A stretch of DNA of 34,670 bases from Clostridia bacterium (GTDB lineage: Bacteria; Bacillota; Clostridia; Christensenellales; Aristaeellaceae): the NCBI GenBank assembly GCA_017470945.1, contig JAFUXH010000135.1, positions 1-34,670 on the forward strand, written 5' to 3'. Made by a program: the position numbers and the translations under genes. Within the stretch, counting starts at the first letter, position 1, and every line of letters starts with the position of its first letter. Below are positions 17,158-31,724 of this stretch, in pieces. The notes beneath the pieces are model-generated. The model worked only from the letters and a program-made list of their open reading frames with translations, did not search any database and was not told the origin of the DNA.

Positions 17158-17217
17158 AAGAAAAAGGATGATACTGAACGCATGGAAGAATCGCAAAAAA
17201 CACCAGGCAACAAACAC

Positions 17218-17342
17218 TGTCATCCCGACCGAAATGGAGCGGAAGGCGGAATGAAGCGGAGGGATCTGGCGCGGCTTGTTCGGCCTACTTTCAGATCCCT
17301 CGATTCCGCTTTTTCTCTGGCTCCGCTCCACGGGGGATAACA
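17218..17342. repeat. Palindromic intergenic repeat, about 125 bp
   Basis: Ends TGTCATCCC and GGGGGATAACA form near-matching inverted termini. Inside, GAGGGATCTG (17259-17268) and CAGATCCCTC (17292-17301) are a perfect 10-bp inverted pair, and the outer arms (GGAGCGGA... against ...GGCTCCGCTCC) pair imperfectly. This resembles the TGTCATCCTGAGCG...GGATCT palindromes dispersed in many bacterial genomes. No coding capacity; probably a non-autonomous repeat. Confidence 0.65.
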
Positions 17343-17416
17343 GGAAAGAGCTTCCTTTCGGTTTTCACTTCTCCTGATGTTTTTTGAAATCAGCATGAAA
17401 CCCGATCGACCCGCCA

Positions 17417-17450
17417 AAATACCCGGCCTTCTCGCGTTGGCCGGGTATTT
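17417..17450. terminator. Hairpin terminator, probably for the minus-strand gene remnant
   Basis: Perfect 12-bp arms AAATACCCGGCC (17417-17428) and GGCCGGGTATTT (17439-17450). On both strands the 3' arm ends in T's, so it can work in both directions. It lies 11 bases after the stop of the minus-strand remnant. Confidence 0.7.
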
Positions 17451-17461
17451 ATATAGGTGGT

Positions 17462-17754
17462 TTACGGCTCCCATTTCGTGCCGTCGGTAAACCGCGCACG
17501 CATGATGGTCAGCTTCACTTTGACGGCTTTCTGATTGACCATATCGTGAATCTCTACGCCGTCCTCAGTCGTATTGGTAACGATCTTGTGATGATCCGGC
17601 GGTTTCCGTTCGCGTCGTAGGCCCTCAGCCGCGGCGTCGCGGATCGCACGGCTTTCGTGGCGTTTTTTTGATTTCGAGGCAGAACGGCCAGAACGATCAG
17701 GGCGAGCCCTTTTGCTCCGCGCATGTTCATGCATCCATCTTCCTTCTCCCACAT
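17462..17754 (-). pseudogene. Frameshifted remnant of a small, possibly secreted protein
   Basis: Two overlapping minus-strand frames each look like part of one protein. One frame gives a signal-peptide-like start (MNMRGAKGLALIVLAVL, from about 17730) and stops at 17554. The other gives a plausible C-terminus (VKLTIMRARFTDGTKWEP) that stops at 17462. Joined near 17570-17600 they would make a protein of roughly 85-90 residues, so one indel may have broken the gene. The alternatives are a true 96-residue protein in the second frame or no gene at all. The terminator directly downstream supports a gene once present. Family unknown. Confidence 0.4.
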
Positions 17755-17900
17755 GGATGGCGTATTTTCACCATGATTTCTGGCTTCATCCTATCGCGTC
17801 CCGCGCGAAAAAGAAAACGGTTTCGGCCCCGCCGGGCAAAAGATTTTCCCCTTGTTTTCCGCCGTTTCGCTGCGCCTTGCATGGATTCGTAAAATTAGTA

Positions 17901-17930
17901 CTGGTAATTTTGCGGAAAATAAGGTATAAT
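17901..17930 (+). promoter_or_regulatory. Probable promoter of the P-loop gene and thrC
   Basis: TATAAT at 17925-17930 with a weak -35 (CTGGTA, 17901-17906, 18-bp spacer), 34 nt before the ATG at 17965. The sequence here is more A+T-rich than its surroundings. Confidence 0.5.
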
Positions 17931-17964
17931 GACTGTAGAATAAGAAGTGAAGGGGGTTTTTCCC

Positions 17965-18375
17965 ATGATACAGGTCATTCACGGCAAAAAAGGATCCGGC
18001 AAAACCAAGCGCATTCTGGACATGGCCAACACCGCGATCAAGGAGCATAAGGGCGACGTTATCTTCATCGACGACGATAACCGCTATATGTTTGACCTGC
18101 GGCACGAAGTGCGCTTCGTCAACGCCGGCGAATACGGCACCGACAGCCCGGAAATGTTCTTCGGCTTCCTGTGCGGCATGCTGGCCCAGAATTTCGATAT
18201 CAGCGTGATCTTCGTCGACGCGTTCATCAAATTGGTGAAAACCGACGTGGAAAACACGGCCGATTTCTTCGCCCGGCTGGAAAAGCTGAGCGAAAAGCAC
18301 AACGTGCAGTTCATCCTGTCCGTCAATTGCGACGACGCGGTGGCGCCTGAATTCATCAAGAAATTTTTCATCTGA
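17965..18375 (+). CDS. Small P-loop ATP-binding protein of unknown role
   Basis: A 136-residue protein starting MIQVIHGKKGSGKTK, a textbook Walker A, followed by a Walker-B-like strand VIFVDAFIKL (about 80-89) and a C-terminal strand VQFILSVNCD. The size is that of a minimal P-loop domain. Similar short Clostridial proteins are sometimes labelled PilT-like, but nothing else here suggests pili. I preferred the ATG at 17965 because AAGGGGG lies 8 nt upstream; an in-frame GTG at 17947 is possible. The gene lies 18 nt before thrC and is probably co-transcribed with it, without an obvious metabolic link. Confidence 0.75.
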   Translation: MIQVIHGKKGSGKTKRILDMANTAIKEHKGDVIFIDDDNRYMFDLRHEVRFVNAGEYGTDSPEMFFGFLCGMLAQNFDISVIFVDAFIKLVKTDVENTADFFARLEKLSEKHNVQFILSVNCDDAVAPEFIKKFFI

Positions 18376-18393
18376 TCAGATCGAGGTAACACC

Positions 18394-19875
18394 ATGGCCT
18401 TTGTGAGCACCCGGGGAGCAGAACGCGTTTCTGCTCCCGAAGCGATCGTGCGCGGCATCGCCCCGGACGGCGGGCTGTACGCGCCGGAAGCCCTGCCCGC
18501 GTGGAGCAGGGCCGATTTTGCCGCCCTGGCCCGCCTGGATTATCCCGCCCGGGCGGCGCTGATCCTGTCCCAATTACTGGATGGATTCACCCAGGAAGAA
18601 TTGCTGCCCATGGCCCGGAACGCTTACGCCCGGTTTGACGATCCGCAAATCGCCCCCCTTCGGGCGCTGCGGGACGGGCAGTACGTGCTGGAGCTGTTCC
18701 ACGGGCCCACCATGGCCTTCAAGGATATGGCCCTGCAATTCCTGCCCCGGCTGCTGACCGCCTCGGCCCGCAAGCAGGGCGAGCAGCGGGAAATCGCCAT
18801 CCTGACCGCCACCAGCGGCGATACCGGCAAGGCCGCCCTGGAGGGCTTTCAGGACGTGCCCGGCACGTCGGTCACGGTGTTTTATCCCCTGGGCGGCGTC
18901 AGCGCCGTGCAGGAAAAGCAGATGGTCACCAGCGCCGGGAAAAACGTGCACGTGGTGGCGGTGAAGGGGAATTTTGACGACGCCCAGACCGGCGTGAAAA
19001 CCCTGTTCGGCGATCCCGCCTTCATCGACAGCATGGCCCAGCGGGGCAAAACCCTGTCCTCCGCTAATTCCATCAATCTGGGCCGCCTGGCCCCCCAGGT
19101 GGCGTATTATCTGTCCGCCTGCGCCGATCTGCTGGCCGACGGCAAGGCCGATTGGGATACGGGCGTGAACGTATGCGTGCCCACCGGCAATTTCGGCAAC
19201 ATCCTGGCCGCCTGGTATGCCAAGCGCATGGGCGCGCCCATCCGGAAGCTGATTTGCGCCAGCAACCGCAACGACGTGCTGACCGATTTCATCCGCACCG
19301 GGGTGTATGACAAGCGCCGCCCATTCCACAAAACCATCTCCCCCTCGATGGATATCCTGATCTCCTCCAACCTGGAGCGGTTCTTGCTGGAGCTGGCCCA
19401 GGGCGACGCCCGGCAGGTGCGCGCCTGGATGGAGCGGCTGAAAACCGAGGGGATCTACGAAATCGCCCCCGATCAAAAGGCCGTGCTGGCCGACATCTTC
19501 TTTGGCGGCTGCGCCGACGACGAAAAGACCCGCGCCGCCATCGGCCGGGTGTGGCGGGAGGAGCAATACCTGATGGATCCCCATACCGCCGTGGCCGAGG
19601 CCGTGGCCCGGGATTACCGACAGGAAACGGGCGATCCGGCCCCCCTGCTGATCGTATCCACCGCCAGCCCCTACAAATTCGCCGCCGACGTGGCGCAGGC
19701 CGTTGGCTGCCCAGTGTCGGGCGACGCCTTCGACGCGGCCCAGGAGCTGGAAGCCTTCACCCAGGTGAAAGCCCCCCGGCAGGTGGCTGAATTGAAATCC
19801 CTGCCCGTGCTGCACACCCGGATCTGCGAAAAGGACCGGATGGGCGAAGCGGTGCTGGCCGGGTTTGACGATTGA
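18394..19875 (+). CDS. thrC: Threonine synthase
   Basis: Converts O-phosphohomoserine to threonine using pyridoxal phosphate. The 493 residues match the longer (class I, about 490-residue) type. The PLP lysine is Lys110 in LFHGPTMAFKDMALQ, and the phosphate-binding ILTATSGDTGKAAL follows at 136-149. Further family elements are VQEKQMVT and ANSINLGRLAPQ. The start ATG has GAGGT 9 nt upstream. No other threonine-pathway gene is adjacent, and no T-box or attenuator is seen before it, so control is unknown. Confidence 0.96.
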   Translation: MAFVSTRGAERVSAPEAIVRGIAPDGGLYAPEALPAWSRADFAALARLDYPARAALILSQLLDGFTQEELLPMARNAYARFDDPQIAPLRALRDGQYVLELFHGPTMAFKDMALQFLPRLLTASARKQGEQREIAILTATSGDTGKAALEGFQDVPGTSVTVFYPLGGVSAVQEKQMVTSAGKNVHVVAVKGNFDDAQTGVKTLFGDPAFIDSMAQRGKTLSSANSINLGRLAPQVAYYLSACADLLADGKADWDTGVNVCVPTGNFGNILAAWYAKRMGAPIRKLICASNRNDVLTDFIRTGVYDKRRPFHKTISPSMDILISSNLERFLLELAQGDARQVRAWMERLKTEGIYEIAPDQKAVLADIFFGGCADDEKTRAAIGRVWREEQYLMDPHTAVAEAVARDYRQETGDPAPLLIVSTASPYKFAADVAQAVGCPVSGDAFDAAQELEAFTQVKAPRQVAELKSLPVLHTRICEKDRMGEAVLAGFDD

Positions 19876-19907
19876 GGCGGAAAAAGCGACAATTGGGCCC
19901 CATCCTC

Positions 19908-19935
19908 TTGCGTTTTTTGCCCGCCATGCTATGAT
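19908..19935 (+). promoter_or_regulatory. Promoter of the 112-residue conserved protein gene
   Basis: TTGCGT (19908-19913), a 16-bp spacer and TATGAT (19930-19935), 35 nt before the ATG at 19971. Confidence 0.5.
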
Positions 19936-19970
19936 CAACCCATACCGATAAACGATTGGAGGGAAGGATC

Positions 19971-20309
19971 ATGGCACAGTATACCCAGCATTTTACCGCG
20001 AATTTTGAGGACCTGCTTTCTTACGTTGACGACAGCGTGATGCGGGGCAGTTTTTCCGCCTCCCGGGAGGGCGGCAGCAATTTTTCCCTGGGCGACGTGC
20101 GGTGCGCCACTCGGGTGTACGAGCGGTACAGCTACATCGGCAGCAACCGGCTCAGCCTGACGGTAACGCTCTTCGGCCGGGACGGGGATATCCAATTGAC
20201 CGCCATCACCGCCGGCGGCAGCCAGGCCCTGATGTTCAAAATCAACACCTGGGGCGAGGAAGCGTTCCTGGAAAAGTTCGTATCCCAATTGGAGAAATAT
20301 CTGCATTGA
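19971..20309 (+). CDS. Small conserved protein, possibly DUF6054
   Basis: A 112-residue cytoplasmic protein without signal peptide or membrane segment. It starts MAQYTQHFTANFEDLL and contains alternating strands, such as RLSLTVTLFGRDGDIQLTAI, and a C-terminal helix EAFLEKFVSQLEKYL. Size and pattern resemble a small uncharacterised Firmicutes family (DUF6054 as I recall it; not certain). The start at 19971 follows GGAGGGAAGG closely; a longer version from 19956 is unlikely. It has its own promoter and sits alone between thrC and the rubrerythrin gene. Function unknown. Confidence 0.6.
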   Translation: MAQYTQHFTANFEDLLSYVDDSVMRGSFSASREGGSNFSLGDVRCATRVYERYSYIGSNRLSLTVTLFGRDGDIQLTAITAGGSQALMFKINTWGEEAFLEKFVSQLEKYLH

Positions 20310-20419
20310 CGGCGTTTCAGCTGCTGCCGGCAGTGGTATCATCAAGATGGGATCAGCGCCGGATGCCCCGGCGTACAGCAAAAGGACCATATCAATCAGA
20401 AGAAATGGAGGAAACAACG

Positions 20420-20965
20420 ATGAAATGGGTATGCCAGATCTGCGGTTACGTGTATGAAGGAGAACAGCCCCCGGAAAAGTGCCCCGTTTGCAAAGCGCCC
20501 GCCAGCAAATTCACCAAGCAGGACAGCGAAAAGGTGTGGGCCGCCGAGCACGTGGTGGGCGTGGCCAGCGAAGCCCCTGAAGAAATCAAGGCCGGCCTGC
20601 GCGATATGTTCAACGGCGAATGCAGCGAAGTGGGTATGTATCTGGCCATGAGCCGCGTCGCCATCCGGGAAGGCTATCCCGAAGTAGGCGCGTTCTTTGA
20701 AAAAGCCGCCTTTGAAGAAGCGTGGCACGCCGCGCATTTTGCCGAGCTGCTGGGCGAAGTCGTCACCGACAGCACCAAGAAAAACCTGCAGCTTCGCGCC
20801 GACGCCGAATACGGCGCCACCCAGGGCCGCGCCGACCTGGCCAAGAAGGCCAAGGCCCTCAACCTCGACGCCATCCATGACATCGTGCATGAAATCGGCC
20901 GCGACGAAGCCCGCCACGGCAAGGCTTTTGCCGGCCTGCTGAAGCGGTACTTTGGGGACAAGTAA
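20420..20965 (+). CDS. Reverse rubrerythrin (rubredoxin domain first)
   Basis: A 181-residue non-haem iron peroxidase/oxygen-defence protein of anaerobes. The rubredoxin domain comes first: MKWVCQICGYVYEG with CxxC at 5 and 8, and CPVC at 21 and 24. The four-helix ferritin-like di-iron domain follows, with E67, E100/H103 (EEAWHAAH), E130 and E163/H166 (DEARH). This order is that of the reverse rubrerythrins of Clostridia, which reduce hydrogen peroxide and oxygen. The ATG has TGGAGGAAAC upstream. The last 55 codons are present again, in divergent form, at 25458-25631, on the other side of the island. A strong terminator follows the stop. Confidence 0.93.
   Translation: MKWVCQICGYVYEGEQPPEKCPVCKAPASKFTKQDSEKVWAAEHVVGVASEAPEEIKAGLRDMFNGECSEVGMYLAMSRVAIREGYPEVGAFFEKAAFEEAWHAAHFAELLGEVVTDSTKKNLQLRADAEYGATQGRADLAKKAKALNLDAIHDIVHEIGRDEARHGKAFAGLLKRYFGDK
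20870..20913 (+). repeat. Left copy of the 44-nt direct repeat (rubrerythrin 3' end)
   Basis: This block in the rubrerythrin gene (codons for [15 protein letters not shown]) is identical to 25539-25582. Similarity extends on both sides, with synonymous differences, over about 170 nt. It marks the left edge of the accessory island. Confidence 0.85.
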
Positions 20966-21332
20966 TCGCTGTTTCTACAAGGCTTTTTAGAGACTGCTCT
21001 GAATGGAGCAGTTTCTTTTTTGGTGCGCAAATCGACATCAACTGTGTGCTGTTGTTGGGACTGCCCTCCTTCCTGCGATTGAAAACCGCTCATTTTGCCT
21101 CAAATGTTGTGCCTCCAGAATGTTGGGACCTTTTGCGGCGTCATTATACCATGAAATAACAAGCAATTCAATAACATCTCTACAGCAAAATGCAACTCAG
21201 AAGAAAACGACTTCCAAACATTTTTGAAACAACTTTCAATCATCTAAAAACCTTGATTATACTGGATTTCTGAGCATGGAACACTTCAAGAGCAGGTCTT
21301 CAAAAAGATTTGCCATATTTTTTGATATGTCA
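20966..21332. other. Gene-free left end of the island
   Basis: After the rubrerythrin stop comes the terminator at 20990 and then A+T-rich sequence with no convincing gene. A minus-strand promoter-like sequence (TTGAAT, 17 bp, TATAAT; 21171 to 21143) points back toward the rubrerythrin gene. The only frame it could serve (from 21093) runs antisense through rubrerythrin and is not protein-like. A TATACT near 21255 has no clear partner. Confidence 0.5.
20990..21022 (+). terminator. Intrinsic terminator after the intact rubrerythrin gene
   Basis: Arms GAGACTGCTC (20990-20999) and GAGCAGTTTC (21006-21015), 10 bp with one G-T pair, followed by seven T. A strong rho-independent terminator. Confidence 0.85.
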
Positions 21333-21371
21333 CAAATAAACGACTGATGCACCCGCCGCGCATGCTATAAT
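21333..21371 (+). promoter_or_regulatory. Island promoter 1 with 15-mer box
   Basis: Box CAAATAAACGACTGA (21333-21347), then 18 bases, then TATAAT (21366-21371). The same 15-mer occurs before island promoter 2, also 18 bases from TATAAT. No good -35 hexamer is present at the normal distance, so the box may bind an activator or act as an alternative -35. Confidence 0.65.
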
Positions 21372-21381
21372 ACAGTCACAA

Positions 21382-21398
21382 GGTTGAGGGAAGCAACC
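21382..21398 (+). promoter_or_regulatory. Leader hairpin 1
   Basis: GGTTG (21382-21386), loop AGGGAAG, CAACC (21394-21398), starting about 10 bases after the -10 and therefore at the very 5' end of the transcript. An outer pair CAAGGT/ACCTTG could extend or compete with it. Confidence 0.45.
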
Positions 21399-21465
21399 GA
21401 GACCTTGAAAGACAAGAAGCCCTGGCGGGGCAGATGAAAATACCGCCAAATAGAAAGGATTTATT

Positions 21466-21723
21466 ATGAAGAAGAATGCTAAGGTTTTCATCATCAAGGC
21501 GAAGGCTGCCAACGGCAATGACCGCACTGTGCACGCTGTCACTTCTCTGGATGTCACCCTGAACGATGTCATCAAGGCGAAGAACATCCCTGTAATGTCC
21601 ATCATCTCCACCAAGGTTACTGCGCCGATGACCCTTCAAGAAGCCACTGCCTTCACCGCCAAGGATTATGCCGCCCTGGTTTGCGCACCGAATACCCGCG
21701 TAGTCAAAACCACCATCGGATAA
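21466..21723 (+). CDS. Island protein 1, 85 residues, unknown
   Basis: I do not recognise this protein. It is small, basic at the N-terminus (MKKNAKVFIIKAKAANG), probably cytoplasmic, with no Cys and no membrane segment. Strands around VFIIKAKA, VHAVTSLDVTL and IISTKV suggest a small beta-rich fold. AGAAAGGA lies 8 nt before the ATG. It is expressed from island promoter 1 with a leader of about 90 nt. The gene that follows has a promoter of the same type, so the two are probably co-regulated. Codon use is less G+C-biased than in the backbone genes. Confidence 0.6.
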   Translation: MKKNAKVFIIKAKAANGNDRTVHAVTSLDVTLNDVIKAKNIPVMSIISTKVTAPMTLQEATAFTAKDYAALVCAPNTRVVKTTIG

Positions 21724-21755
21724 ACACCACCTGCCACAAGAAAAGAAACCAGTAC

Positions 21756-21794
21756 CAAATAAACGACTGACGAATCCTCACCAAGTATTATAAT
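21756..21794 (+). promoter_or_regulatory. Island promoter 2 with the same 15-mer box
   Basis: Box CAAATAAACGACTGA (21756-21770), 18 bases, then TATAAT (21789-21794): the same box and spacing as at 21333. The sequences between box and -10 differ, so the box and spacing appear to be kept by selection. Confidence 0.65.
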
Positions 21795-21803
21795 AAAGCC
21801 ATC

Positions 21804-21821
21804 AAGTGAAGGAAAACACTT
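21804..21821 (+). promoter_or_regulatory. Leader hairpin 2
   Basis: AAGTG (21804-21808), loop AAGGAAAA, CACTT (21817-21821), about 9 bases after the -10. It has the same position and a similar purine loop to leader hairpin 1, but a different stem sequence. Confidence 0.45.
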
Positions 21822-21849
21822 ACAAACCCAAGAGAGAAAGGAAACCACT

Positions 21850-22284
21850 ATGACTACTATCTCCATCACCATCAACCGCAAGAACAGCACCATCGAACTG
21901 ACCAAAGCCACCGCCAAAGCAGCCACCAAGTTTGGCTCCGAAGCCTACAATCGGTTGCAGGATGCCCGCAAGGACTACCCCACCTTCCGCGTCGTGACCG
22001 TTGCCAAGAAGACCGCCAAGCCCGAATACAAGGGTCTGACCTTCGAGTACATGAAGAAGTACATCGCCCAGCACGATGACGAGAACAACACCATCATGGC
22101 GAAGTTCCTTGACCTGCGCGGCGAGAGCGACGAAGCAAAGGCTATCGGTGCCATGTCCGCTGGCTACATCGAAATCAAAGCCTGGTTCTTCGAGCAGTAC
22201 CCCGCCATCCAGAAGTTCCACGAAGACCGCATCGCCCTGTTGAAAGACGCTGTTGAGAAGCAGGCGGCGAAGAAAGCCGCTTGA
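21850..22284 (+). CDS. Island protein 2, 144 residues, paralogue of protein 3
   Basis: No family recognised. The protein starts with TTISITINRKNSTIEL, a probable beta hairpin, then a helical core with ARKDYPTFRVV and YKGLTFEYMKKYI (about 40-76) and a charged Lys/Ala-rich C-terminal helix. The downstream gene at 22333 encodes a related protein with the same order (LTINHTNHTIVM, RRDYPNYQVV, YRGLTYTYMEDYI), so this is a tandem duplication. No signal peptide or membrane segment. AGAAAGGAAACC precedes the ATG. It is driven by island promoter 2. A structural or nucleic-acid-related role is possible, but nothing shows it. Confidence 0.65.
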   Translation: MTTISITINRKNSTIELTKATAKAATKFGSEAYNRLQDARKDYPTFRVVTVAKKTAKPEYKGLTFEYMKKYIAQHDDENNTIMAKFLDLRGESDEAKAIGAMSAGYIEIKAWFFEQYPAIQKFHEDRIALLKDAVEKQAAKKAA

Positions 22285-22332
22285 CCTTCCCACCACCATC
22301 ACATTTTCGACCAATAGAAAGGAGTTGTCAGT

Positions 22333-22782
22333 ATGACCAATACGCTGACCATCAATCACACCAATCACACCATCGTCATGGACAGGACTTTTGCCAAGCA
22401 TGCTGTTGATACCAGAAGCGAAGAATACATCCACCTGCAAGCCGTTCGCCGCGACTATCCCAACTATCAGGTTGTCCAGCGCCACATCCGCACCAATAGC
22501 AACAAGAATACTTACAGGGGCCTGACCTACACCTACATGGAAGACTACATCATGACCCACGGCACGACTGAGACGAGGCTTGCGAATTATAAGGAATACT
22601 CCGAAATGCGCATGATTGCTGAATGCCACGGCAAAGCATTCCGTTATCCTGTCATCAAAAGTTGGTTTTTGAACAAATACCCCGAAATCGCCAATTTCAG
22701 TACGATGGAATACACTTCGCAGGTCATCGAGCAGGGCGAAGCCGAAGCTGATAACACCGTCACTTTGAAGAAAGCATCGTGA
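22333..22782 (+). CDS. Island protein 3, 149 residues, paralogue of protein 2
   Basis: Related to the preceding gene over roughly the first 80 residues: the N-terminal LTINHTNHTIV strand pair, the DYPNYQVV segment and YRGLTYTYMEDYI. The two also share a W-F-xx-YPxI motif later (KSWFLNKYPEI here, KAWFFEQYPAI in protein 2). The C-terminal tail is acidic here and basic in protein 2. A good AGAAAGGAG site precedes the ATG. No separate promoter is visible in the 48-nt gap, so it is probably co-transcribed with protein 2. Function unknown. Confidence 0.65.
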   Translation: MTNTLTINHTNHTIVMDRTFAKHAVDTRSEEYIHLQAVRRDYPNYQVVQRHIRTNSNKNTYRGLTYTYMEDYIMTHGTTETRLANYKEYSEMRMIAECHGKAFRYPVIKSWFLNKYPEIANFSTMEYTSQVIEQGEAEADNTVTLKKAS

Positions 22783-22787
22783 TTTTT

Positions 22788-22839
22788 CCTCAAAGGTTGA
22801 TAGAAGCTCATAATAAGTATAAATGGTCAACCTTTGAGG
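22788..22839. repeat. 13-bp perfect inverted repeat around an A+T-rich core
   Basis: CCTCAAAGGTTGA (22788-22800) and TCAACCTTTGAGG (22827-22839) with 26 bases between; flanking T's and A's extend the symmetry with one bulge. The core holds TATAAA (22818-22823). It can be read as an operator pair around a promoter for the next gene or as a terminator hairpin after protein 3; there is no T tract after it on the plus strand. Confidence 0.6.
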
Positions 22840-22860
22840 GAAAAGCGGGAAGGTGAGAGC

Positions 22861-23604
22861 ATGAAGCAGTTAGAGGTTCGCGCTTACGAGCGCCAAGAGA
22901 TAGCCGAAATTATGGGCTTGAAGGTGAGCAGCCATAATTTTATCCGTGATGTGCGCGACAGGCTGAAAAAATGGGGCTACACCTGCGAAACGCCACGCGG
23001 CAGGGCGGTCATCATCACCAGTAAACCCGAAACGGCGCAGGAGCGTTTGGCTGAAATCATGATTCGACTGTTCGGGCTGGACCTCCAGATTGAGGTGTAC
23101 GCCTTCGCCTGCTACCTTCACTTCATGCTGAACGAGCCTGCCGCACAAGCCATGCCTTGGGTAGAACGGCACGCCCTGATTCAAGAGATGTATGGTCTGG
23201 ACATTTCAGAAATCACCCTGCGTCGCTGGACAAAACACCTGCTGGACGGCGACATCATGCACAAGAACGAAGGCAGGCAGGATTCTGAATGGTGGATGAC
23301 CTACACTGACAGCGTGGGGAAACATCAAGAGCCTGTGGAAGAAGAAGACTTGCCGCAGATGCACCAATACTGGAAGCGGCATGGCGAATTACTGAATAAA
23401 TGGCGAATCACCTGCAACGGCAATGAAAGCGCCGCGTGGAGCGCAACCCGAAAGCAAATGTGGCAGGAATACCAATGCTGCTATTATCGCTGCAAGTGCC
23501 TGACCATCAACGGAATTGGCAATGAAGAAATCAACACCATCATTGACCTTGTGGATGAAATACTGGAACTGAATTGGGATTCCTCAAACGCTGAACAAGC
23601 ATAA
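22861..23604 (+). CDS. Island protein 4, 247 residues, probable N-terminal winged-helix DNA-binding protein
   Basis: No named family recognised. The N-terminus (about 8-60) reads like a helix-turn-helix with a wing: YERQEIAEIMGL, then a helix RDVRDRLKKWGY and a basic hairpin RGRAVIITSKP. A second region with ISEITLRRWTKHLL (about 120-135) could be another helix-turn-helix. The C-terminal third has several Cys (YQCCYYRCKC) and a final acidic helix. The start at 22861 follows GGAAGGTGAG; the longer frame from 22834 would overlap the inverted repeat. A terminator follows. It could regulate the island promoters, or be a replication-type protein; both are inference. Confidence 0.6.
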   Translation: MKQLEVRAYERQEIAEIMGLKVSSHNFIRDVRDRLKKWGYTCETPRGRAVIITSKPETAQERLAEIMIRLFGLDLQIEVYAFACYLHFMLNEPAAQAMPWVERHALIQEMYGLDISEITLRRWTKHLLDGDIMHKNEGRQDSEWWMTYTDSVGKHQEPVEEEDLPQMHQYWKRHGELLNKWRITCNGNESAAWSATRKQMWQEYQCCYYRCKCLTINGIGNEEINTIIDLVDEILELNWDSSNAEQA

Positions 23605-23655
23605 GGCTTTTGCGCACCTATGAAGGGAGCCTGACAAGTGAATAGATTGCGATAT

Positions 23656-23684
23656 TGGAAGCATGATTTTTGCTTCCATTTTTC
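23656..23684 (+). terminator. Intrinsic terminator after island protein 4
   Basis: Arms TGGAAGC (23656-23662) and GCTTCCA (23672-23678) followed by TTTTT. Confidence 0.75.
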
Positions 23685-24009
23685 ATTATTTTGGACTTTC
23701 TTGCCGTTTGAAGATTCACCTCAACCCGCGCCAACTTGCCGACCATGAAAAATTTTGGTAAAATAAGTATGGAAAGTGAAGCGGTGCATTCCTTTCCAAT
23801 GGTCTGCTATGAAACGCTTTTGACCAATCATCACCTTCTTTCGCATGGTTCTAATCATTTCCATGTGCACCGCAACAAAAAATGTCACATTATAAGCAAA
23901 CAGCGGAAGTGTATCACGGCACTTCCGCTGTTTGTTGCTCTCATCGCTTTACAAAAATACAATAGAACTAACAAGAAAAAGAAACCCCCTGCTGATGCTG
24001 GTGGTTTCA
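23685..24009. other. Gene-free stretch inside the island with a strong hairpin
   Basis: No credible gene. It holds a perfect 14-bp inverted repeat, AAACAGCGGAAGTG (23898-23911) and CACTTCCGCTGTTT (23920-23933), with an 8-base loop. It lies between converging units (protein 4 on plus, the ribbon-helix-helix gene on minus) and may end transcription from either side, although T tracts are short. Confidence 0.55.
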
Positions 24010-24192
24010 TCATTCTATTTCAACATTTTCGACGCCATGCCGCAAGAGCAGGTTGATGAGCTCATTTCTGGAATAGTTAGTTTCTGCCGCCAGCTTGTCC
24101 AGAGCTTCCAAGGTGTCTTCCTTGATACGAACCGAAATCACTTTATAACCATCATCCCCACGACGCTTGATTTTTAGAACATTTTCACCCAT
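24010..24192 (-). CDS. Ribbon-helix-helix (CopG/Arc-like) regulator
   Basis: A 60-residue protein with the ribbon-helix-helix layout: strand YKVISVRIKEDTL, helix TLEALDKLAAETN, turn, helix SRNELINLLLRHGVEN. This fold forms dimers that bind short palindromes and usually represses its own gene. The start at 24192 (MGENVLKI) follows GGTGAT; a TTG at 24204 would be a longer choice. It is transcribed away from the 24321 gene, with overlapping promoters between them. No toxin gene is adjacent in the antitoxin-toxin manner, but the small divergent gene at 24321 could be its partner. Confidence 0.78.
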   Translation of the reverse strand: MGENVLKIKRRGDDGYKVISVRIKEDTLEALDKLAAETNYSRNELINLLLRHGVENVEIE

Positions 24193-24222
24193 ACCATCAC
24201 CCAACCTTTCGATTTCTACACA

Positions 24223-24294
24223 ATTATAGATTGACGGTGTGCAGAAAGATATGCTATAATCTAATATGGTAGATGATATTCACGATGATATCAT
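24223..24294. promoter_or_regulatory. Divergent promoter/operator region of the RHH regulator
   Basis: Plus strand: TTGACG (24231-24236), 18 bp, TATAAT (24255-24260). Minus strand: TATAAT (24228-24223) with no good -35. Downstream of the plus -10 lie ATGATAT (24273-24279) and the perfect palindrome ATGATATCAT (24285-24294), 12 bp apart start to start, which is operator-like for a ribbon-helix-helix dimer pair. Confidence 0.6.
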
Positions 24295-24320
24295 TTTAGA
24301 ATACGAAGGGAGAGAAGGGG

Positions 24321-24530
24321 ATGCGAAAGAACTCAGAGCGGATTGACCCGAACAAGAAACTGTTCGTGGTCAATAACTGTGGCGCAAGCAGGACGCTCCA
24401 CATCAACGATGGACGATGTTGCCAAGTCAAGCGACTGTTTCAGTTCGCTGATTTCGAAACAGAACAAGGTGCTTGGAAATACTTCGATAATAACTTGAAA
24501 AGATGTGGAAATTGTTTTCCGAAAGAATGA
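24321..24530 (+). CDS. Small cysteine-containing protein, unknown
   Basis: A 69-residue protein with five Cys: NNCGAS, GRCCQV and a C-terminal RCGNCF (CxxC). The pairing of an inner Cys-rich turn with a final CxxC could make a zinc site or knuckle, but this is only suggested by spacing. AGAAGGGG lies immediately before the ATG, a short distance. It is transcribed from the plus promoter at 24231 that shares its control region with the ribbon-helix-helix gene. Continuous with the secreted-protein gene 13 nt downstream, so probably one unit. Family unknown. Confidence 0.55.
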   Translation: MRKNSERIDPNKKLFVVNNCGASRTLHINDGRCCQVKRLFQFADFETEQGAWKYFDNNLKRCGNCFPKE

Positions 24531-24543
24531 AAGAGGGGTTTTT

Positions 24544-25137
24544 ATGAAAAAAATCATTTGCACTATGCTTATTTTTCTTATGCTTATTGGAATGACATCA
24601 GTGGCAGTAGCCGATGCCATAGCAGAATATGGTAGTTGGAGTGTTTATCAAAGCAAAGATGAATTCGATCTTCCGATAAAAGATCAATATTATGTGGCGT
24701 GTGTTGCCTATGGCAATTTCAGTAATACTGCAACAAGTAAAGGTGATTTAGCTGTAGTTATGTCCGTTAATCAGGAACCATGGGTAACATTCGTGTTAGT
24801 TGAGTATGGGAAGCATGCCGTTTCTAATTCATCTTCCAAAGATTACCGGAAATTCGACATTCTAATGATGGATTCGGATGGCAATAGGCAGCAATTAATG
24901 GGTTTCATGAAACCTAAGTCGAACAGGGTTATTGCAACTACAAAAGGTAATTATGAGCCTGAAACCAACAAAGCAATTTTAAAAGCTTTAATGGCAGGTG
25001 AGGGTACTGTTCGATTCTCCGTGACGGATAGAGACGATTCCAGGTATAAGTATGTTTTTGTCATTGAAGATATCGCTGGATTTTGTGAAGCTTGTGAGAA
25101 AGCAAACATCAGTCTCGCGAACGTTGCTGGAGAATAA
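24544..25137 (+). CDS. Secreted protein of unknown function, A+T-rich gene
   Basis: A 197-residue protein with a strong signal peptide (KKIICTMLIFLMLIGMTSVAVA, cleavage after VADA). The mature part has a Trp/Tyr-rich beta-type pattern (GSWSVYQSKDEFDLPIK, then YYVACVAYGNF) and a late CEAC pair. This layout is seen in invasion-associated-locus-like and other small secreted beta proteins, but I cannot assign it. The start at 24544 follows AGAGG; a longer frame from 24505 overlaps the preceding gene. Codon use is clearly richer in A and T than any backbone gene, suggesting recent transfer. It is the last gene of the island. Confidence 0.65.
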   Translation: MKKIICTMLIFLMLIGMTSVAVADAIAEYGSWSVYQSKDEFDLPIKDQYYVACVAYGNFSNTATSKGDLAVVMSVNQEPWVTFVLVEYGKHAVSNSSSKDYRKFDILMMDSDGNRQQLMGFMKPKSNRVIATTKGNYEPETNKAILKALMAGEGTVRFSVTDRDDSRYKYVFVIEDIAGFCEACEKANISLANVAGE

Positions 25138-25403
25138 AGAATAAAACAAAAAGACGGGAAAGCGATTAGAAATGCATATAATCGGAGACTATTACGGTTT
25201 GTGATTTCGGCGTAAATATCCATGTTTGTTTGCTCCCTTCTCTTGTTCAGGGGAGCCAGCCATGTTATATTCACACCTTCTAATGTTGTGTCAAAAGGTG
25301 TGCCAACATGCTTTAGAGATGCAGTTGAGATGCACAATAGTTGTGTCGAAGTTCTTCAAAAGATGTAAGAAATATGTTAGTGCGATACTCCCCGAACGCT
25401 ACC
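25138..25403. other. Gene-free right end of the island
   Basis: A+T-rich sequence with no credible frame, repeat or terminator that I can support. It ends at the consensus promoter at 25404. Confidence 0.5.
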
Positions 25404-25432
25404 TTGACAGCGCACCCCTAAAGTCTTATAAT
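25404..25432 (+). promoter_or_regulatory. Perfect consensus promoter pointing into the rubrerythrin fragment
   Basis: TTGACA (25404-25409), a 17-bp spacer and TATAAT (25427-25432), identical to the sigma-70/SigA consensus. It is the best promoter in the window, yet it leads into a truncated gene. Confidence 0.8.
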
Positions 25433-25457
25433 GTCAGTGTACGCAAGGCTTTTTGTC

Positions 25458-25634
25458 GCAATCCGCGCCGATGCTGAGTACGGTGCAACTCAGGCAAGAG
25501 CTGACCTGGCCAAGAAGGCCAAGGCACTGAATCTCGATGCCATCCATGACATCGTGCATGAAATCGGCCGCGACGAAGCCCGGCACGGCAAGGGCTTCCA
25601 GGGCCTGCTGGATCGGTATTTCGGGAAGTAATCA
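25458..25634 (+). pseudogene. Rubrerythrin 3'-end fragment (5'-truncated duplicate)
   Basis: Encodes the last 55 residues of a rubrerythrin in frame, from [11 protein letters not shown] to [20 protein letters not shown], with no rubredoxin domain and no first half of the di-iron domain. It differs from the intact copy mainly at synonymous sites and in the last residues ([13 protein letters not shown] against KAFAGLLKRYFGDK). An open frame from 25431 adds [10 protein letters not shown] from unrelated sequence, but there is no ribosome site. Its own terminator follows (25646). It is best read as the displaced end of a host rubrerythrin gene, left on the far side of the island. Confidence 0.85.
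25539..25582 (+). repeat. Right copy of the 44-nt direct repeat (rubrerythrin 3' end)
   Basis: Identical to 20870-20913. The two copies start 4669 bp apart and in the same orientation, so recombination between them would remove the island and leave one rubrerythrin gene. Confidence 0.85.
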
Positions 25635-25645
25635 TCTTGCCGATT

Positions 25646-25745: not shown

Positions 25746-26570
25746 ATGAGCGTCAGTATTGAAAACACATCGGGCATCCCGGCTGCGGTTTGGGTGATCG
25801 GGCTGCTGATCTTAGCCGCTGTCATCCTCTACGCCGTCAAGCACGGGCACAATGTCAAAATCGGCCCTATTGAGTTTGAATCCAAAGGGGAGCAGGCAAA
25901 AAAGCAGCCGCCGTCCGAAGAAAGCGCGCCGTCCGATCCGGGCCCGGCAGAAGGGAAACACATTGATCCCACCGCGGAGCCTTTAACGGAAGGTGTAGCG
26001 CATCTCTTTGGCACGACGAGGACGCAGGATTCCGAGCTGGCTTACCTTTATCTGACGAAAGCCGCCGAAGCCGGCCAGCGCGAAGCCTTCTTCTATCTCG
26101 GATATATGTACGCAAAGGGATTATACGTCCGCTTAGATTACCAGGAAGCCATGGCGCAATACAAAAAAGGCGCCGATCGGGGAAGCACGTCCGCCATGAA
26201 TAATATCGGCCATTTGTATGAAAACGGCCTTGGCGTGGCGCAGGATTACAAGGCGGCGGCGGATTGGTATATCAGGGCCGCGGATCTTGGCGACCCGGCA
26301 GGCCAGGGAAACGCCGCGCGTATGTATAAAAACGGAAGAGGCGTCCCCCAGGATCTCGACAAAGCCATAACCTTGTACAGGCGGGCCATCCAACAAGGCA
26401 ATGAAAGCGCCATGAACAATCTCGCCGTCATGTATGAAGAGGGTGTCGGCGTGCAGCAAGATATAACCCAGGCGATTTTCTGGTATAAAGAGGCCGCGAA
26501 AAACGGCAACAAATCCGCCCCGAAAGCCTTGGAAAGGCTGAAAGAAAGCCGGCCCGAGCTGTTCACCTAA
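25746..26570 (+). CDS. Membrane-anchored Sel1-repeat protein
   Basis: A 274-residue protein with one N-terminal membrane segment (about 12-31, AVWVIGLLILAAVILYAV), a short positively charged stretch and a Pro/Ser/Glu-rich linker (about 48-78). Four to five Sel1-like repeats follow (about 85-265). The repeats carry the usual A-x-x-x-L-G-x-x-Y-x-x-G and D-x-x-x-A-x-x-W-Y-x-x-A-A pattern, for example NNIGHLYENGLGVAQDYKAA. Sel1 repeats form an alpha solenoid used for protein-protein contacts. Likely topology is N-terminus anchored with the solenoid on one side; which side is not certain. GGAGAAACGTGAT precedes the ATG. It follows the rubrerythrin fragment. Confidence 0.85.
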   Translation: MSVSIENTSGIPAAVWVIGLLILAAVILYAVKHGHNVKIGPIEFESKGEQAKKQPPSEESAPSDPGPAEGKHIDPTAEPLTEGVAHLFGTTRTQDSELAYLYLTKAAEAGQREAFFYLGYMYAKGLYVRLDYQEAMAQYKKGADRGSTSAMNNIGHLYENGLGVAQDYKAAADWYIRAADLGDPAGQGNAARMYKNGRGVPQDLDKAITLYRRAIQQGNESAMNNLAVMYEEGVGVQQDITQAIFWYKEAAKNGNKSAPKALERLKESRPELFT

Positions 26571-26757
26571 GCTTCACGGGCACGTAAGCTTACGGCGAAG
26601 CCCGCACGGCAAGAACTTCCGAATTTCAGTTCCTTCCGCGCGGGGAATCCCGTGTGTTTTCCTTTCCCCTATTCGCATATTCCTTCATTCTTCATCGGAA
26701 ACGGAACAACGCAAACAGCAAACCGATTCCCCACGCGTGGGCAAAGGAGGTGAAAGC

Positions 26758-27516
26758 GTGTCCGTCAGTCCATCCCTGAAAAACGGGCCATATGGACGGC
26801 AGCTGATCGAAGCCCTGCAGCTATTGATCCGCAACATGCAGGAATTGCCGGACGCGTATGCTTCCTATCACGAAGTGTTTTCCGATTGGCAAAAGCAGCT
26901 GTACGCCGGATGGAAGGCAAAGGAGCCGACGCTCATGTACCTCACGGCGGAATACTGCCGCCTGACGCCCGACTTCGGCCCGGTGTTTGACCTTGAAGCC
27001 GAGGACGTGCCCCAGGCCGGCCCGGAAGAGGCGGAGAAGATTTATCTGGCCGCCGCGGAGCAGGGCTGCGATCTGGCGCGCCTGTGGCTGGCCTACTGCT
27101 ATGAGGAAGGAAGATGCGGGCTTCGGAAAGAACCGCAGCTGTCCATGCAATTCCAAACCGCCGTGACCCACCCGGTGGACAGGCTATTTCCCCATGAGCT
27201 TTCCTTTTTGTATGAGGAGCTTGAGCAGCTGTATGACGTTGCGGAGCACGCGCTGTACCTTTGGGATGCCTACCAAAACCCGGATTTTTCATCGATCAAT
27301 GATCGAAGCATGCTGCTCTATTCCTATATGATCCTGCTGGGCCTGCGGGACGTTCCGCGCCACGAGCGCAGAAGCGCGCTGGACGTGTACAATCCCGCCA
27401 TCGAATGGAGATCCCCTTACGATTCGCTGAACGCGCAAAACAGCCGGGAAAAGCAGAGCTGGGAAGCCTGGTGCGCAGAGAGGGGCTTCCTTGCGTCGGG
27501 CAGCGAATTCATTTGA
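26758..27516 (+). CDS. Sel1-like/TPR-type cytoplasmic protein, unknown
   Basis: A 252-residue protein starting at GTG (26758), chosen because AAAGGAGGTGA lies just upstream; a longer in-frame GTG at 26737 would include the ribosome site. It has no signal peptide. One clear Sel1-like unit is seen at about 93-125 (EEAEKIYLAAAEQGCDLARL, then LAYCYEEGRCG). The remainder is helical with many aromatic residues and no recognised catalytic motif. It lies about 190 nt after the membrane-anchored Sel1 protein and may work with it as a soluble partner, which is inference. Family otherwise unknown. Confidence 0.7.
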   Translation: MSVSPSLKNGPYGRQLIEALQLLIRNMQELPDAYASYHEVFSDWQKQLYAGWKAKEPTLMYLTAEYCRLTPDFGPVFDLEAEDVPQAGPEEAEKIYLAAAEQGCDLARLWLAYCYEEGRCGLRKEPQLSMQFQTAVTHPVDRLFPHELSFLYEELEQLYDVAEHALYLWDAYQNPDFSSINDRSMLLYSYMILLGLRDVPRHERRSALDVYNPAIEWRSPYDSLNAQNSREKQSWEAWCAERGFLASGSEFI

Positions 27517-27596: not shown

Positions 27597-28106
27597 ATGA
27601 AGCGATCTGTCGCATGGACGCTCCTTGTCATGCTGTGCCTCACAGCGGGTATTGCCCGCGCAGAAGAGGAACTTGCCTCTCTTGGCGAATCTTATGAATT
27701 TGACGATTTTGGGGCGTCTTTTCTGGGTTATCGCGTGACGCAGGTTGCCAATAAGAATTATATCTACATTTACATGGATTATAAAAACCAATCCGACGCG
27801 CCGCAAATGTTTGATTCCGCCTGCATGGTCTTTGTATATCAGGATGATGAAATGTGCGAGGTGCCCGGCAATGATTTACCCGGCACGAAATTCTATGAAA
27901 TCACGCTTCCCGGCCAAACAGGAAAATACGCATTTGCGTATGCGCTGTACAACACCGAAACATCCGTGACAGTGCAGATGATGCCGGGTTCTCAAATCCG
28001 GGTAGCTCCGTCCTTCCGCAAAGGGATCCGTACCTATGTCTTCGATATAAGTATGGCACCTGAAGACATTGCCCACGGCTACACATGGGATGAGATAACA
28101 CCATAA
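27597..28106 (+). CDS. Secreted DUF5067-like protein
   Basis: A 169-residue protein with a signal peptide (MKRSVAWTLLVMLCLTAGIARA). The mature part carries the pattern YIYMDYKNQSDAPQMFDSACMVFVYQDDEMCEV, close to the extracellular immunoglobulin-like domain DUF5067 (YFDFTNNSDE...F...VFQNG...). No lipobox, so released or loosely held. The start ATG at 27597 has GAAAGGAAG upstream. It follows the Sel1-like gene by 80 nt and may belong to the same unit. Role unknown; many such domains occur in secreted lipoproteins of Clostridia and Lactobacillales. Confidence 0.6.
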   Translation: MKRSVAWTLLVMLCLTAGIARAEEELASLGESYEFDDFGASFLGYRVTQVANKNYIYIYMDYKNQSDAPQMFDSACMVFVYQDDEMCEVPGNDLPGTKFYEITLPGQTGKYAFAYALYNTETSVTVQMMPGSQIRVAPSFRKGIRTYVFDISMAPEDIAHGYTWDEITP

Positions 28107-28225
28107 AATTCAAAAGATGCCTGCCACTTCTGCGGCAAGGCGTTCGAGGGGGCTGCTGAAGCGATACGATGGCGCTGCGCCATGGTATTGTTTGCGCAGA
28201 TAACGCAATTTCGTCGAGGTGTGTT

Positions 28226-29455: not shown

Positions 29456-31108
29456 TTGATACAAGTACAGGCAATTGACGGGCTGCTCCTGCGGGAAATG
29501 GTGCTGGCAGGGGCCGCGCTGCTGGAAAAAAACCGGGAAATGGTGGACGCGCTGAACGTGTTCCCCGTGCCGGACGGCGATACGGGCACCAATATGAGCC
29601 TTACCATGGCCAGCGCCACCCGGGAAATCAATTCCCGGGAATTCACCCGGGCCGACGAGGCGGCCGCCGCTTTATCCAAAGGCGCGCTGCGGGGCGCCCG
29701 GGGCAACAGCGGCGTAATCACCAGCCAGCTGTACCGTGGCTTTGCCAAGGCGCTGGCGGGGGTGGAAAAAATCACGCCGCCCCAATTCGCCGCCGCCCTG
29801 CAAAAAGGCGCGGAGCAGGCCTATAAGGCCGTGATGAAGCCCAAGGAGGGCACCATCCTGACGGTGGCCCGGGTGATCGCGGAGGACGCGGTGCGCCAGG
29901 CCCAGGCCGCGCCGGAGGATTACGACGCGCTGTTCAACGTAATTTTGCAGTCGGGCGAAGCCATTTTGCGGCGCACACCCGATATGCTGCCGGTGCTCAA
30001 GCAGGCCGGCGTGGTGGACGCGGGCGGCCGCGGGCTGCTGCTGCTGTATACCGGCTACGCCGCCGTGCTGCGGGGCGAAAGCATCGAAGACCTGATGCCC
30101 GACGACGTGGCGGTGGACGACGAAGCGGAATTCACCGACAATCACGACGCCATCGAGAACCTGAAATACGCCTACCACACCGCCTTTGACGTGCGCGACC
30201 TGCGGGACGACGTGAAGGAAGAAGATATCGACACCTTCCGCCGCCGGCTGAACCGCATCGGCGACTGTGTGGTGGTGGAGGGCGATTTGACGGGCGTCAG
30301 CGCCCACGTGCACACCAACGAGCCCCACAAGGCCATCGAATACGGCATCGAGCTGGGTGAATTGACCAACCTGGTCATCGAAAACATGGCCTGGGTCCGC
30401 AAGGAAGCCGCCCGCGCCCAGGAGGAGGCCAACGCGCCCCAGGAGCCGCCCAAGCCCTACGGCATGGTCAGCGTATCCCTGGGCGAAGGCTTCTCCCGAA
30501 TCTTGAAGGATCTGCAGGTGGACGGCATCGTGGAGGGCGGCCAGACCATGAATCCCTCCATCGAGGATCTGCAAAAAGCCATCGATTCGGTCAATGCCGA
30601 AACCATCTTCGTGTTCCCCAACAACGGCAATATCATCCTGGCGGCCCAGCAGGCGGCGGAGTTATCGGAAAAGAACGTGGTGGTGATCCCCACGAAGAAC
30701 GTGGCCATGGGCATCGCCGCGGCGGTGGCCTTCCAGCCGGACCTGAGCGCCGAAGAAAACGCCCAGCGCATGGACGAAGCCGCCCAGCGGGTGCGCACCG
30801 GCACCATCACCTACGCCGTGCGGGACAGCGATTTTGAAAACATGCATATCTCCGAGGGCGATATCATCGGCCTGCACAACGGCAAGGTGGAATTCCAGGC
30901 GCACAACGTGCACGACGTGGCCATCGAATTGGTCAAAGCCATCGTGACGGAGGATGACGGCCTGATCACCATCTACTACGGCGCCGAAACCAAGGCGGAG
31001 GACGCCAAGGCCCTGGGCGCGGAGATCGAAGAAATGTGCCCCGACTGCGACGTGGAGGTGCACGAAGGCGGCCAGCCCCTGTATTACTACCTGATCGCGG
31101 TAGAGTGA
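29456..31108 (+). CDS. fakA: Fatty acid kinase catalytic subunit FakA (DAK2/DegV-like, YloV)
   Basis: FakA phosphorylates fatty acids bound to a FakB (DegV) protein. The 550 residues show the DhaL/DAK2 kinase domain first (about 10-205), with NVFPVPDGDTGTNMSLTM carrying the metal-binding aspartates and ALRGARGNSGVI. The central Cys-poor domain and the C-terminal FakB-binding region (about 330-550) follow, with VFPNNGNIILAAQQAAEL. The start is TTG with GGAGGG about 8 nt upstream. The yloU-yloV order is kept; a serine dehydratase and recG, which often follow, are absent here and recG lies at 11.8 kb. A perfect terminator ends the unit. Confidence 0.94.
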   Translation: MIQVQAIDGLLLREMVLAGAALLEKNREMVDALNVFPVPDGDTGTNMSLTMASATREINSREFTRADEAAAALSKGALRGARGNSGVITSQLYRGFAKALAGVEKITPPQFAAALQKGAEQAYKAVMKPKEGTILTVARVIAEDAVRQAQAAPEDYDALFNVILQSGEAILRRTPDMLPVLKQAGVVDAGGRGLLLLYTGYAAVLRGESIEDLMPDDVAVDDEAEFTDNHDAIENLKYAYHTAFDVRDLRDDVKEEDIDTFRRRLNRIGDCVVVEGDLTGVSAHVHTNEPHKAIEYGIELGELTNLVIENMAWVRKEAARAQEEANAPQEPPKPYGMVSVSLGEGFSRILKDLQVDGIVEGGQTMNPSIEDLQKAIDSVNAETIFVFPNNGNIILAAQQAAELSEKNVVVIPTKNVAMGIAAAVAFQPDLSAEENAQRMDEAAQRVRTGTITYAVRDSDFENMHISEGDIIGLHNGKVEFQAHNVHDVAIELVKAIVTEDDGLITIYYGAETKAEDAKALGAEIEEMCPDCDVEVHEGGQPLYYYLIAVE

Positions 31109-31124
31109 TGATCAATCGCCTTGC

Positions 31125-31161
31125 AGCGGAAGGAACGGCCATGATCGTTCCTTCCGCTTTT
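31125..31161 (+). terminator. Intrinsic terminator after fakA
   Basis: Perfect 13-bp arms AGCGGAAGGAACG (31125-31137) and CGTTCCTTCCGCT (31146-31158), 8-base loop, ending in TTTT. Confidence 0.9.
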
Positions 31162-31167
31162 CATTTT

Positions 31168-31330
31168 ATACTAAATCAAATCTAAAAGACTGTCTGGATT
31201 CGGCGTGAATTTTTCGTCTTGGCTAAGCTGAACGAAGGGAGGCGTAGCAGCGCTACGTTGACCGGAGTAAAGCAACGCCAGGGCGAAAAAGGCACCCGAA
31301 GATGACAGGATTTTAGGTTTGATTTAGTAT
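31168..31330. mobile_element. MITE-like palindromic element, about 163 bp
   Basis: Terminal inverted repeats of 20 bp with one mismatch: 31168-31187 (ATACTAAATCAAATCTAAAA) and 31311-31330 (TTTTAGGTTTGATTTAGTAT). The interior is also an imperfect palindrome (GTCTGGATTCGG... against ...CCCGAAGATGAC) centred on GTAGCAGCGCTAC. No coding capacity. TA bases at both ends could be an IS630/mariner-type target duplication. It sits between a terminator and a promoter, a typical safe site for a MITE. Confidence 0.7.
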
Positions 31331-31393
31331 TAGGCCGATAACCCACCAGAAAAAACAGGCAGAAGAAAAACAATGGCTCCTCCCCCATGGGCC

Positions 31394-31421
31394 TTGACAA
31401 ATTCTGCAAAATGATTAAAAT
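31394..31421 (+). promoter_or_regulatory. Promoter of the T-box transcript
   Basis: TTGACA (31394-31399), a 16-bp spacer and TAAAAT (31416-31421); start of transcription expected near 31428, just before T-box stem I. Confidence 0.7.
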
Positions 31422-31429
31422 TATCTTAA

Positions 31430-31697: not shown

Positions 31698-31724
31698 ATT
31701 TACACATCAAGGAGGATGCGGCAT

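Follow-up and report, generated by a model that had tools for sequence, protein, structure and literature searches.

The window analysed here, a stretch of 34,670 nucleotides from a Clostridia bacterium, raises the question of why the 3' end of an intact reverse rubrerythrin gene (rbr) recurs downstream of that gene, with an island in between. Comparing the locus with related genomes, we propose, with a probability of roughly 0.8 for the explanation as a whole, that the rbr 3' end would be a site of integrative elements that has turned into a cassette array. The rbr protein comprises a rubredoxin-like domain (residues 3-31) and a rubrerythrin domain (residues 62-173) according to Pfam; "reverse" denotes the type, and the gene lies on the plus strand. 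As claimed in a preliminary description of the window, its 3' end indeed recurs with 44 identical nucleotides: the direct repeat spans 173 nt (20795-20967 and 25464-25636, 82% identity, same direction, spacing 4,669), and the two rbr-end copies have the exact 44-nt block GCCATCC...GAAGCCCG in common. The rbr protein matched the second copy at an E value of about 8e-28 (tblastn), and a search of the whole genome with it gave three places, namely the gene, the second copy and one weak rubredoxin-like match. The reading frame of rbr is open to its stop, with the gene end repeated at both island borders, as in a gene rebuilt in frame. The lower G+C reported between the copies was also confirmed (0.454 in the island, versus 0.627 in the left flank at 13885-20965 and 0.624 at 29456-34670). 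A terminator had been described for each copy; the left stem was called by a terminator scan, whereas the one behind the right copy can be made out by inspecting the sequence but was not called. A tRNA-type attachment site was ruled out, since the window has no tRNA.

The repeat does not stop at two copies. A third and a decayed rbr end follow further downstream (Table 1), showing that the array extends past 25634 and includes the gene for a Sel1-repeat protein. The island initially bounded at 20786..25634 therefore keeps its two-copy borders, but is one of several inserts. In a first search of 60 relatives with the rbr protein, we likewise found full genes accompanied by short rbr 3' ends shortly downstream. 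When the last 72 nt of rbr were used as an nhmmer model of sequence alone, rows of rbr ends were obtained, with the gene end plus six further copies in genome G013, three in G024 and two in G034. At least one displaced end was present in 42 of 148 non-redundant rbr loci, which together hold 76 displaced ends; at a threshold of 18 bits, the minus strand has none. A wider set, restricted to scores of at least 18 bits and gaps of 150-2,500 nt, yielded 90 non-redundant inserts at 51 loci, and the rbr ends lie on one strand per locus with no exception. The 148-locus and 51-locus sets include loci fetched for having several matches and thus give no prevalence. Among sets picked for holding rbr, displaced ends occurred in 11 of 20 loci (L033-L052, E<0.02) and in 12 of 80 (L078-L157), two of the latter 12 (L154 and L155) being the same loci as L039 and L046. 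The 22 Butyrivibrio-titled loci among the 80 have none, and one of them has only 8 nt downstream.

These rows bear on the alternative raised in the preliminary description, that the right copy is a second rbr gene deprived of its 5' half. The window copy does span about 57 codons, and the loci L164 (G316), L167 (G160) and L168 (G157) each hold two complete rbr genes on the same strand, about 7-8 kb apart. Two full tandem genes at this place in relatives had been named as an arrangement that would speak against the island; such pairs were thus found, but in other genera of the family, where they perhaps represent elements carrying a whole rbr gene. A truncated second gene does not account for as many as seven rbr ends in one locus or for a sharp border, nor for the integrases and colinear elements described below, and we regard it as very improbable.

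We then investigated what might insert at the rbr end. The row in G013 includes the N-terminus of an integrase, and an intact relative of this integrase in G025 is encoded antisense, adjoining a displaced rbr end. The integrase family gave 16 matches in 12 of the 308 family genomes. All 11 matches that reach the first seven residues are antisense and lie about 160-280 nt from a displaced rbr end; among the others, one internal fragment has an rbr end nearby, and in the flanks fetched for the remaining four there is none. Two further matches, in G534 and G457, came from a sample of 297 genomes of the order, and the full match in G534, from another family, has the same geometry, antisense beside a displaced rbr end. 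Four relatives have elements between rbr and the displaced end, the two longer ones in G194 (18.9 kb) and G311 (18.3 kb) and the two shorter ones in G100 (11.6 kb) and G239 (10.5 kb). Proteins of the G194 element match Phage_integrase (the integrase, 1.8e-16), ArdC and resolvase; this element also carries type I restriction-modification, and the G311 element carries methylase/restriction-like genes. These elements and the cassette arrays described below are the other islands starting at rbr 3' ends for which the preliminary description had suggested a search. The portion of rbr carried varies, from about 57-58 codons (the L216 attR and the window at 25464-25634) to about 22-30 codons in other elements. 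In L166, L215 and L035, G+C-rich GNA-loop hairpins (e.g. GGGGCGCAGCCCC) lie directly against the displaced rbr end of integrase elements. G194 has a further integrase of this family (contig C13; L211, L219) which, with its first residues absent and no rbr end nearby, perhaps uses another target site.

One contig retrieved from IMG/VR, L158, encodes a 422-aa integrase (37% identical to that of G025), followed by the last ~93 nt of rbr and, beyond it, a terminase small subunit. This arrangement, with viral-type genes on both sides of the rbr end, appears attP-like. L158 was the sole contig found by the DNA pattern of the rbr end, and no relative of the G025 integrase was confirmed in a protein search of IMG/VR. 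As for phage structural or packaging genes, L158 has the terminase small subunit, while none was recognised by eye among the open reading frames (ORFs) of L165 and L166. Taken together, the last 45-90 nt of rbr would serve as the chromosomal attachment site of a tyrosine-integrase element family. The comparison of genomes shows that each element bears its own rbr end, and that recombination within this copy rebuilds the full rbr on the left and displaces the old end to the right.

If so, the sequence behind the last displaced end should be that found directly behind rbr at empty loci. We called a locus strictly empty if at least 3 kb of its sequence was known, no rbr end scored 12 bits or higher and no similarity to an element or integrase was present. 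Of 41 filled loci, 6 (one out of register) had a sequence behind the last displaced end that matched the sequence directly behind rbr at empty loci; for the sequence directly behind rbr in filled loci, the count was 0 of 42. The clear cases are L034 and L041 against L038 (83% over 92 nt and 85% over 142 nt). A looser first count had given 17 of 41 versus 4 of 42, but its "empty" set held L165, L221 and L092, which contain elements or an integrase piece, and two matches within L164. The earlier proposal that an element with its own rbr 3' end recombined into the host gene is supported by this test, by the integrase elements of relatives and by L158. The alignment with an empty site that it had called for was only partly successful: empty sites were matched, but the window is not among the matches, and the Sel1 gene, expected to flank its empty site, is itself cargo.

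We next compared the island of the window with these elements (Table 1). Across its first 2.2 kb, blocks of 66-77% identity are colinear with the beginning of the G100 element, and its 144-aa and 149-aa genes follow the order in which their homologues open the G194 element. Both also have homologues in G140, at 72% and 86% identity, the latter over 22 residues up to the contig end; a separate G140 contig has an integrase fragment beside a displaced rbr end, and the two contigs may belong together. ArdC is intact in the elements of relatives, while the window has only a relic of its start. The element integrase had no match in the window or in its genome, in accordance with the earlier remark that no integrase is visible, and PADLOC gave no match among nine window proteins. 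Since the island (20966-25463) is colinear with the G100 and G194 elements and keeps the ardC relic, with the integrase gone, we interpret it as a probable deletion derivative of the family, which would have lost the middle and the integrase. Among the possibilities entertained before, this favours a remnant.

Table 1. Features of the window around rbr and its displaced ends.
Feature	Position	Strand	Basis or remark
Reverse rubrerythrin gene (rbr), intact	20420..20965	+	Pfam RUBY_RBDX 1.1e-15, Rubrerythrin 1.7e-11
rbr 3' end taken as attachment region	about 20888-20965	+	repeat
Terminator-like stem behind rebuilt rbr end	20989..21016	+	terminator scan
Left-end leader	21054..21270	.	71% over 217 nt to same place of integrase-bearing G100 element (L221)
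ORF, 85 aa	21466..21723	+	no family at significant score
ORF, 144 aa	21850..22284	+	homologue of first gene of G194 element (50%) and of G140 (72%)
ORF, 149 aa	22333..22782	+	homologue of second gene of G194 element (60%)
ORF, 247 aa	22861..23604	+	weak winged-helix match, HTH_33 E 0.006, below cut-off
Ribbon-helix-helix (CopG/Arc-like) regulator	24010..24192	-	family search
ORF, 69 aa	24321..24530	+	ORF list, no family assigned
ORF, 197 aa, signal-peptide-like start by eye	24544..25137	+	no family assigned
Relic of element ardC start (MDIYAEITNR...), rest missing	25197..25269	-	89% identical to L166 (75 nt) and 84% to L221 (61 nt)
Displaced rbr 3' end 1 (attR-like)	25464..25634	+	repeat, nhmmer
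Cargo gene (Sel1-repeat protein) flanked by displaced ends 1 and 2	25746..26570	+	Sel1 1.8e-39
Decayed displaced rbr end 2	26596..26618 (about)	+	1/400 shuffles as good
ORF, 252 aa, cargo	26758..27516	+	ORF list
ORF, 169 aa, secreted-like by eye	27597..28106	+	stop ~9 nt ahead of displaced end 3
Displaced rbr end 3	28115..28167	+	nhmmer E 8e-5; 0/400 shuffles as good
Gene presumed DAK-like, conserved right neighbour	29456..31108	+	also behind rbr ends in G013 (L035, 80%) and G019 (L054, 90%)

Some further observations concern the surroundings of the gene. A perfect sigma-70 consensus promoter (12/12, spacer 17) lies at 25404-25432, just upstream of displaced end 1. Threonine synthase and DUF6054 are neighbours of rbr in many loci of the window's genus. 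The rbr protein of the window is 92-93% identical to those of other genera (L078, L079, L082) and at most 82% identical to those of its own genus, unlike the adjoining threonine synthase, which is 83% identical to that of the genus member L033; the coding region of this rbr may itself have been exchanged.

Most inserts in the relatives are much smaller than these elements and consist mainly of one gene. Among the 68 inserts below 1,500 nt, 60 have their longest ORF on the plus strand and seven on the minus strand, and one insert has no ORF of 30 codons. The distance from the stop of this ORF to the following rbr end is -10 to +40 nt in 53 of 67, and the ORF covers a median 80% of the insert. 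Their displaced ends have a sharp border: identity to the genome's own rbr is about 0.3 (0.15-0.50) up to 13 nt before a CACGG motif, 0.46-0.74 at -12 to -2 and, further in, mostly 0.6-0.97 apart from drops at individual variable positions, so that the rise takes place over about 12 nt. Certain cargo recurs across genomes and positions, including a cysteine-rich protein that is zinc-ribbon-like by eye, with no Pfam match, in six inserts and a 127-aa membrane-like protein in four. Other cassettes carry MNT/HEPN toxin-antitoxin-like pairs, DUF4160/DUF2442 pairs, NUDIX and, in L046, a CPCC protein. The site appears to be used outside the family as well, as L057 (G050, another family of the order) has a displaced rbr end behind an insert of about 970 nt with a 202-aa gene. 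The comparison shows that the site has become an integron-like array in this family of rumen Clostridia, accumulating units of roughly 0.2-1.4 kb that are bounded by rbr ends, share one orientation and are mostly made up of a single main gene.

Such rows of mostly single, co-oriented genes would also be expected of a classical integron with IntI and attC, which we nevertheless consider scarcely credible here, as the repeated site is the rbr end and five loci gave no Rfam family match. Moreover, none of the 308 family genomes exceeded the cut-off of an integron-integrase model, although 14 control genomes gave none either, so that this search lacks a positive control; weak tyrosine-recombinase matches to the model occurred in 295 of the 308.

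We then asked whether single units move. The 361-nt cassette of G104, G073 and G287 is 98-99% identical among them, while their rbr genes are 71-80% identical; more generally, near-identical cassettes (95-99%) are shared even where the rbr genes of the genomes diverge by up to about 29%. In 27 insert pairs of at least 85% identity, the downstream neighbours are at most 0.58 identical in 24 and the upstream ones at most 0.56 in 20, values near the level of unrelated sequence, for which the baseline is an estimate. In three pairs (L080, L170, L261) the downstream sequence is also alike (0.83-0.90). The units have thus moved singly between genera. This bears on the alternative that the small inserts are large integrase elements shrunk in place by deletion. 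L035 and L170 do have N-terminal relics of the integrase enclosed by rbr ends, L171 has one adjacent to an rbr end at a contig start, and the island of the window is itself such a leftover; however, near-identical inserts occur in different contexts and genera, with ORFs mostly flush with the border, and independent deletions would not yield an identical unit. We therefore consider shrinkage unlikely as the origin of the small inserts.

To locate the exchange points, we aligned recent transfers; the common block extends from the 3' part of the preceding rbr end to, in most cases, the 5' part of the following end. Over 22 pairs from eight families, the excess identity over unrelated pairs reaches 0.80-0.86 in the preceding end (positions 36-47) and 0.85-0.57 in the following end (-12 to 5); between these stretches it is lower, except for 0.56 at positions 30-35 of the following end. 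This pattern is not what a single fixed cut with one event per pair would produce, whereas scattered cuts, several events or homology-driven exchange would fit. A target-duplication model was dropped, since L098 and L175 have almost the whole following end in common. Our first model from L111 and L081, in which the preceding tail travels with the gene, was also abandoned in view of the scattered exchange points and of the comparison of the two ends, in which the preceding end is the more alike in 11 of 19 pairs.

Both an integrase acting in trans and homology via the repeat were considered as the mover of the small cassettes. We favour the former as most likely: the integrases would act on the cassettes in trans, aided or followed by exchange via the repeated rbr ends. 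The cassettes would exploit the rbr end for this exchange and, where no terminator intervenes, probably rbr transcription. Alternatively, the integrases may only have founded the array, and the cassettes may be exchanged by homologous recombination (RecA or annealing) via the repeated ends, for example after DNA uptake. This is a real contender, to which we give a little less than an even chance, and it contests only the last step of the proposed explanation. The scatter of the exchange points and the scarcity of integrases agree with it, as does the finding that displaced ends are nearer to the rbr of their own genome than to those of others, in 62 of 67 at positions 28-47, 54 of 67 at 8-27 and 49 of 67 at -12 to 7. 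However, the common stretch between unrelated ends is about 45-60 nt at about 70-73% identity, which is short for RecA, the onset of homology in small inserts is confined to the zone of about 12 nt, and the rbr ends lie on one strand in 51 of 51 loci.

Several results weigh against the proposal that an integrative-element site became a cassette array. The scattered exchange points, in place of one fixed cut, fit homology-driven or repeated exchange at least equally, and the 11 of 19 pairs leave little preference as to which end travels with the gene. Integrases are rare, although arrays are frequent in the fetched loci, making their link to the cassettes indirect. Among the four integrase matches with no rbr end, one is nearly full length except for its start (L211), two are fragments and one is at 28% identity, and in G457 the nearby rbr end is on the same strand as the integrase. 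To these must be added the 14 of 67 inserts whose ORFs do not end flush, the few strict empty-site matches with none for the window, the three loci with two full rbr genes, and a contamination estimate of 8.4% for the window's genome. Many of the genomes are metagenome assemblies, and several contigs end inside arrays.

A broader proposal is that the rbr 3' end is the common cassette site of a whole bacterial family, in a new gene-cassette capture system where one-gene cassettes with a split copy are shuffled between genera by phage- or element-borne integrases or by site recombination, as a functional counterpart of the integron in Firmicutes. We put this forward tentatively, at somewhat under one chance in two. 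Cassette systems are known chiefly from integrons, whereas these mostly uncultured rumen Clostridia seem to gather and trade short genes at a fixed place without a recognised IntI. As the gene end is re-supplied with each insertion, the arrays can grow without harming rbr. The end of an oxygen-defence gene would serve rumen bacteria as a docking site for repeated insertion of mobile DNA. The site is defined, a candidate integrase is available and natural substrates are numerous, so the origin and movement of cassettes become testable outside integrons, and searching behind rbr offers a handle for mobile cargo and defence genes in rumen genomes.

At the abstract level of the open-access PMC literature, we found no account of rbr serving as a site for integration or for cassettes, and three kinds of known systems come closest. 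Integron arrays and the integrase-less clusters of attC sites (CALIN) likewise consist of rows of small, mostly single co-oriented genes split by a repeated site, exchange single cassettes between genomes and include arrays with no neighbouring integrase. Single co-oriented genes, each followed by the site, are also what most of the present inserts show (53 of 67 flush, 60 of 68 co-oriented). The rbr arrays differ from integrons in having no integron integrase over the cut-off, a protein-gene 3' end as the site and scattered exchange points. The staphylococcal cassette chromosome (SCC) similarly uses the 3' end of a conserved protein gene, rlmH, with repeats between tandem inserts and composite islands; there, however, the serine recombinase Ccr acts, whereas the Phage_integrase family was found beside the rbr site (Ccr was not searched for), and the rbr inserts mostly have one gene. 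Finally, prophages and islands in protein genes, such as e14 and phage 21 in icd and those at the 3' end of trmE or the 5' end of dusA, also combine a tyrosine integrase with a protein gene as the site. In the case of icd, the element re-supplies the gene end. To this arrangement, the rbr arrays add rows of one-gene inserts.

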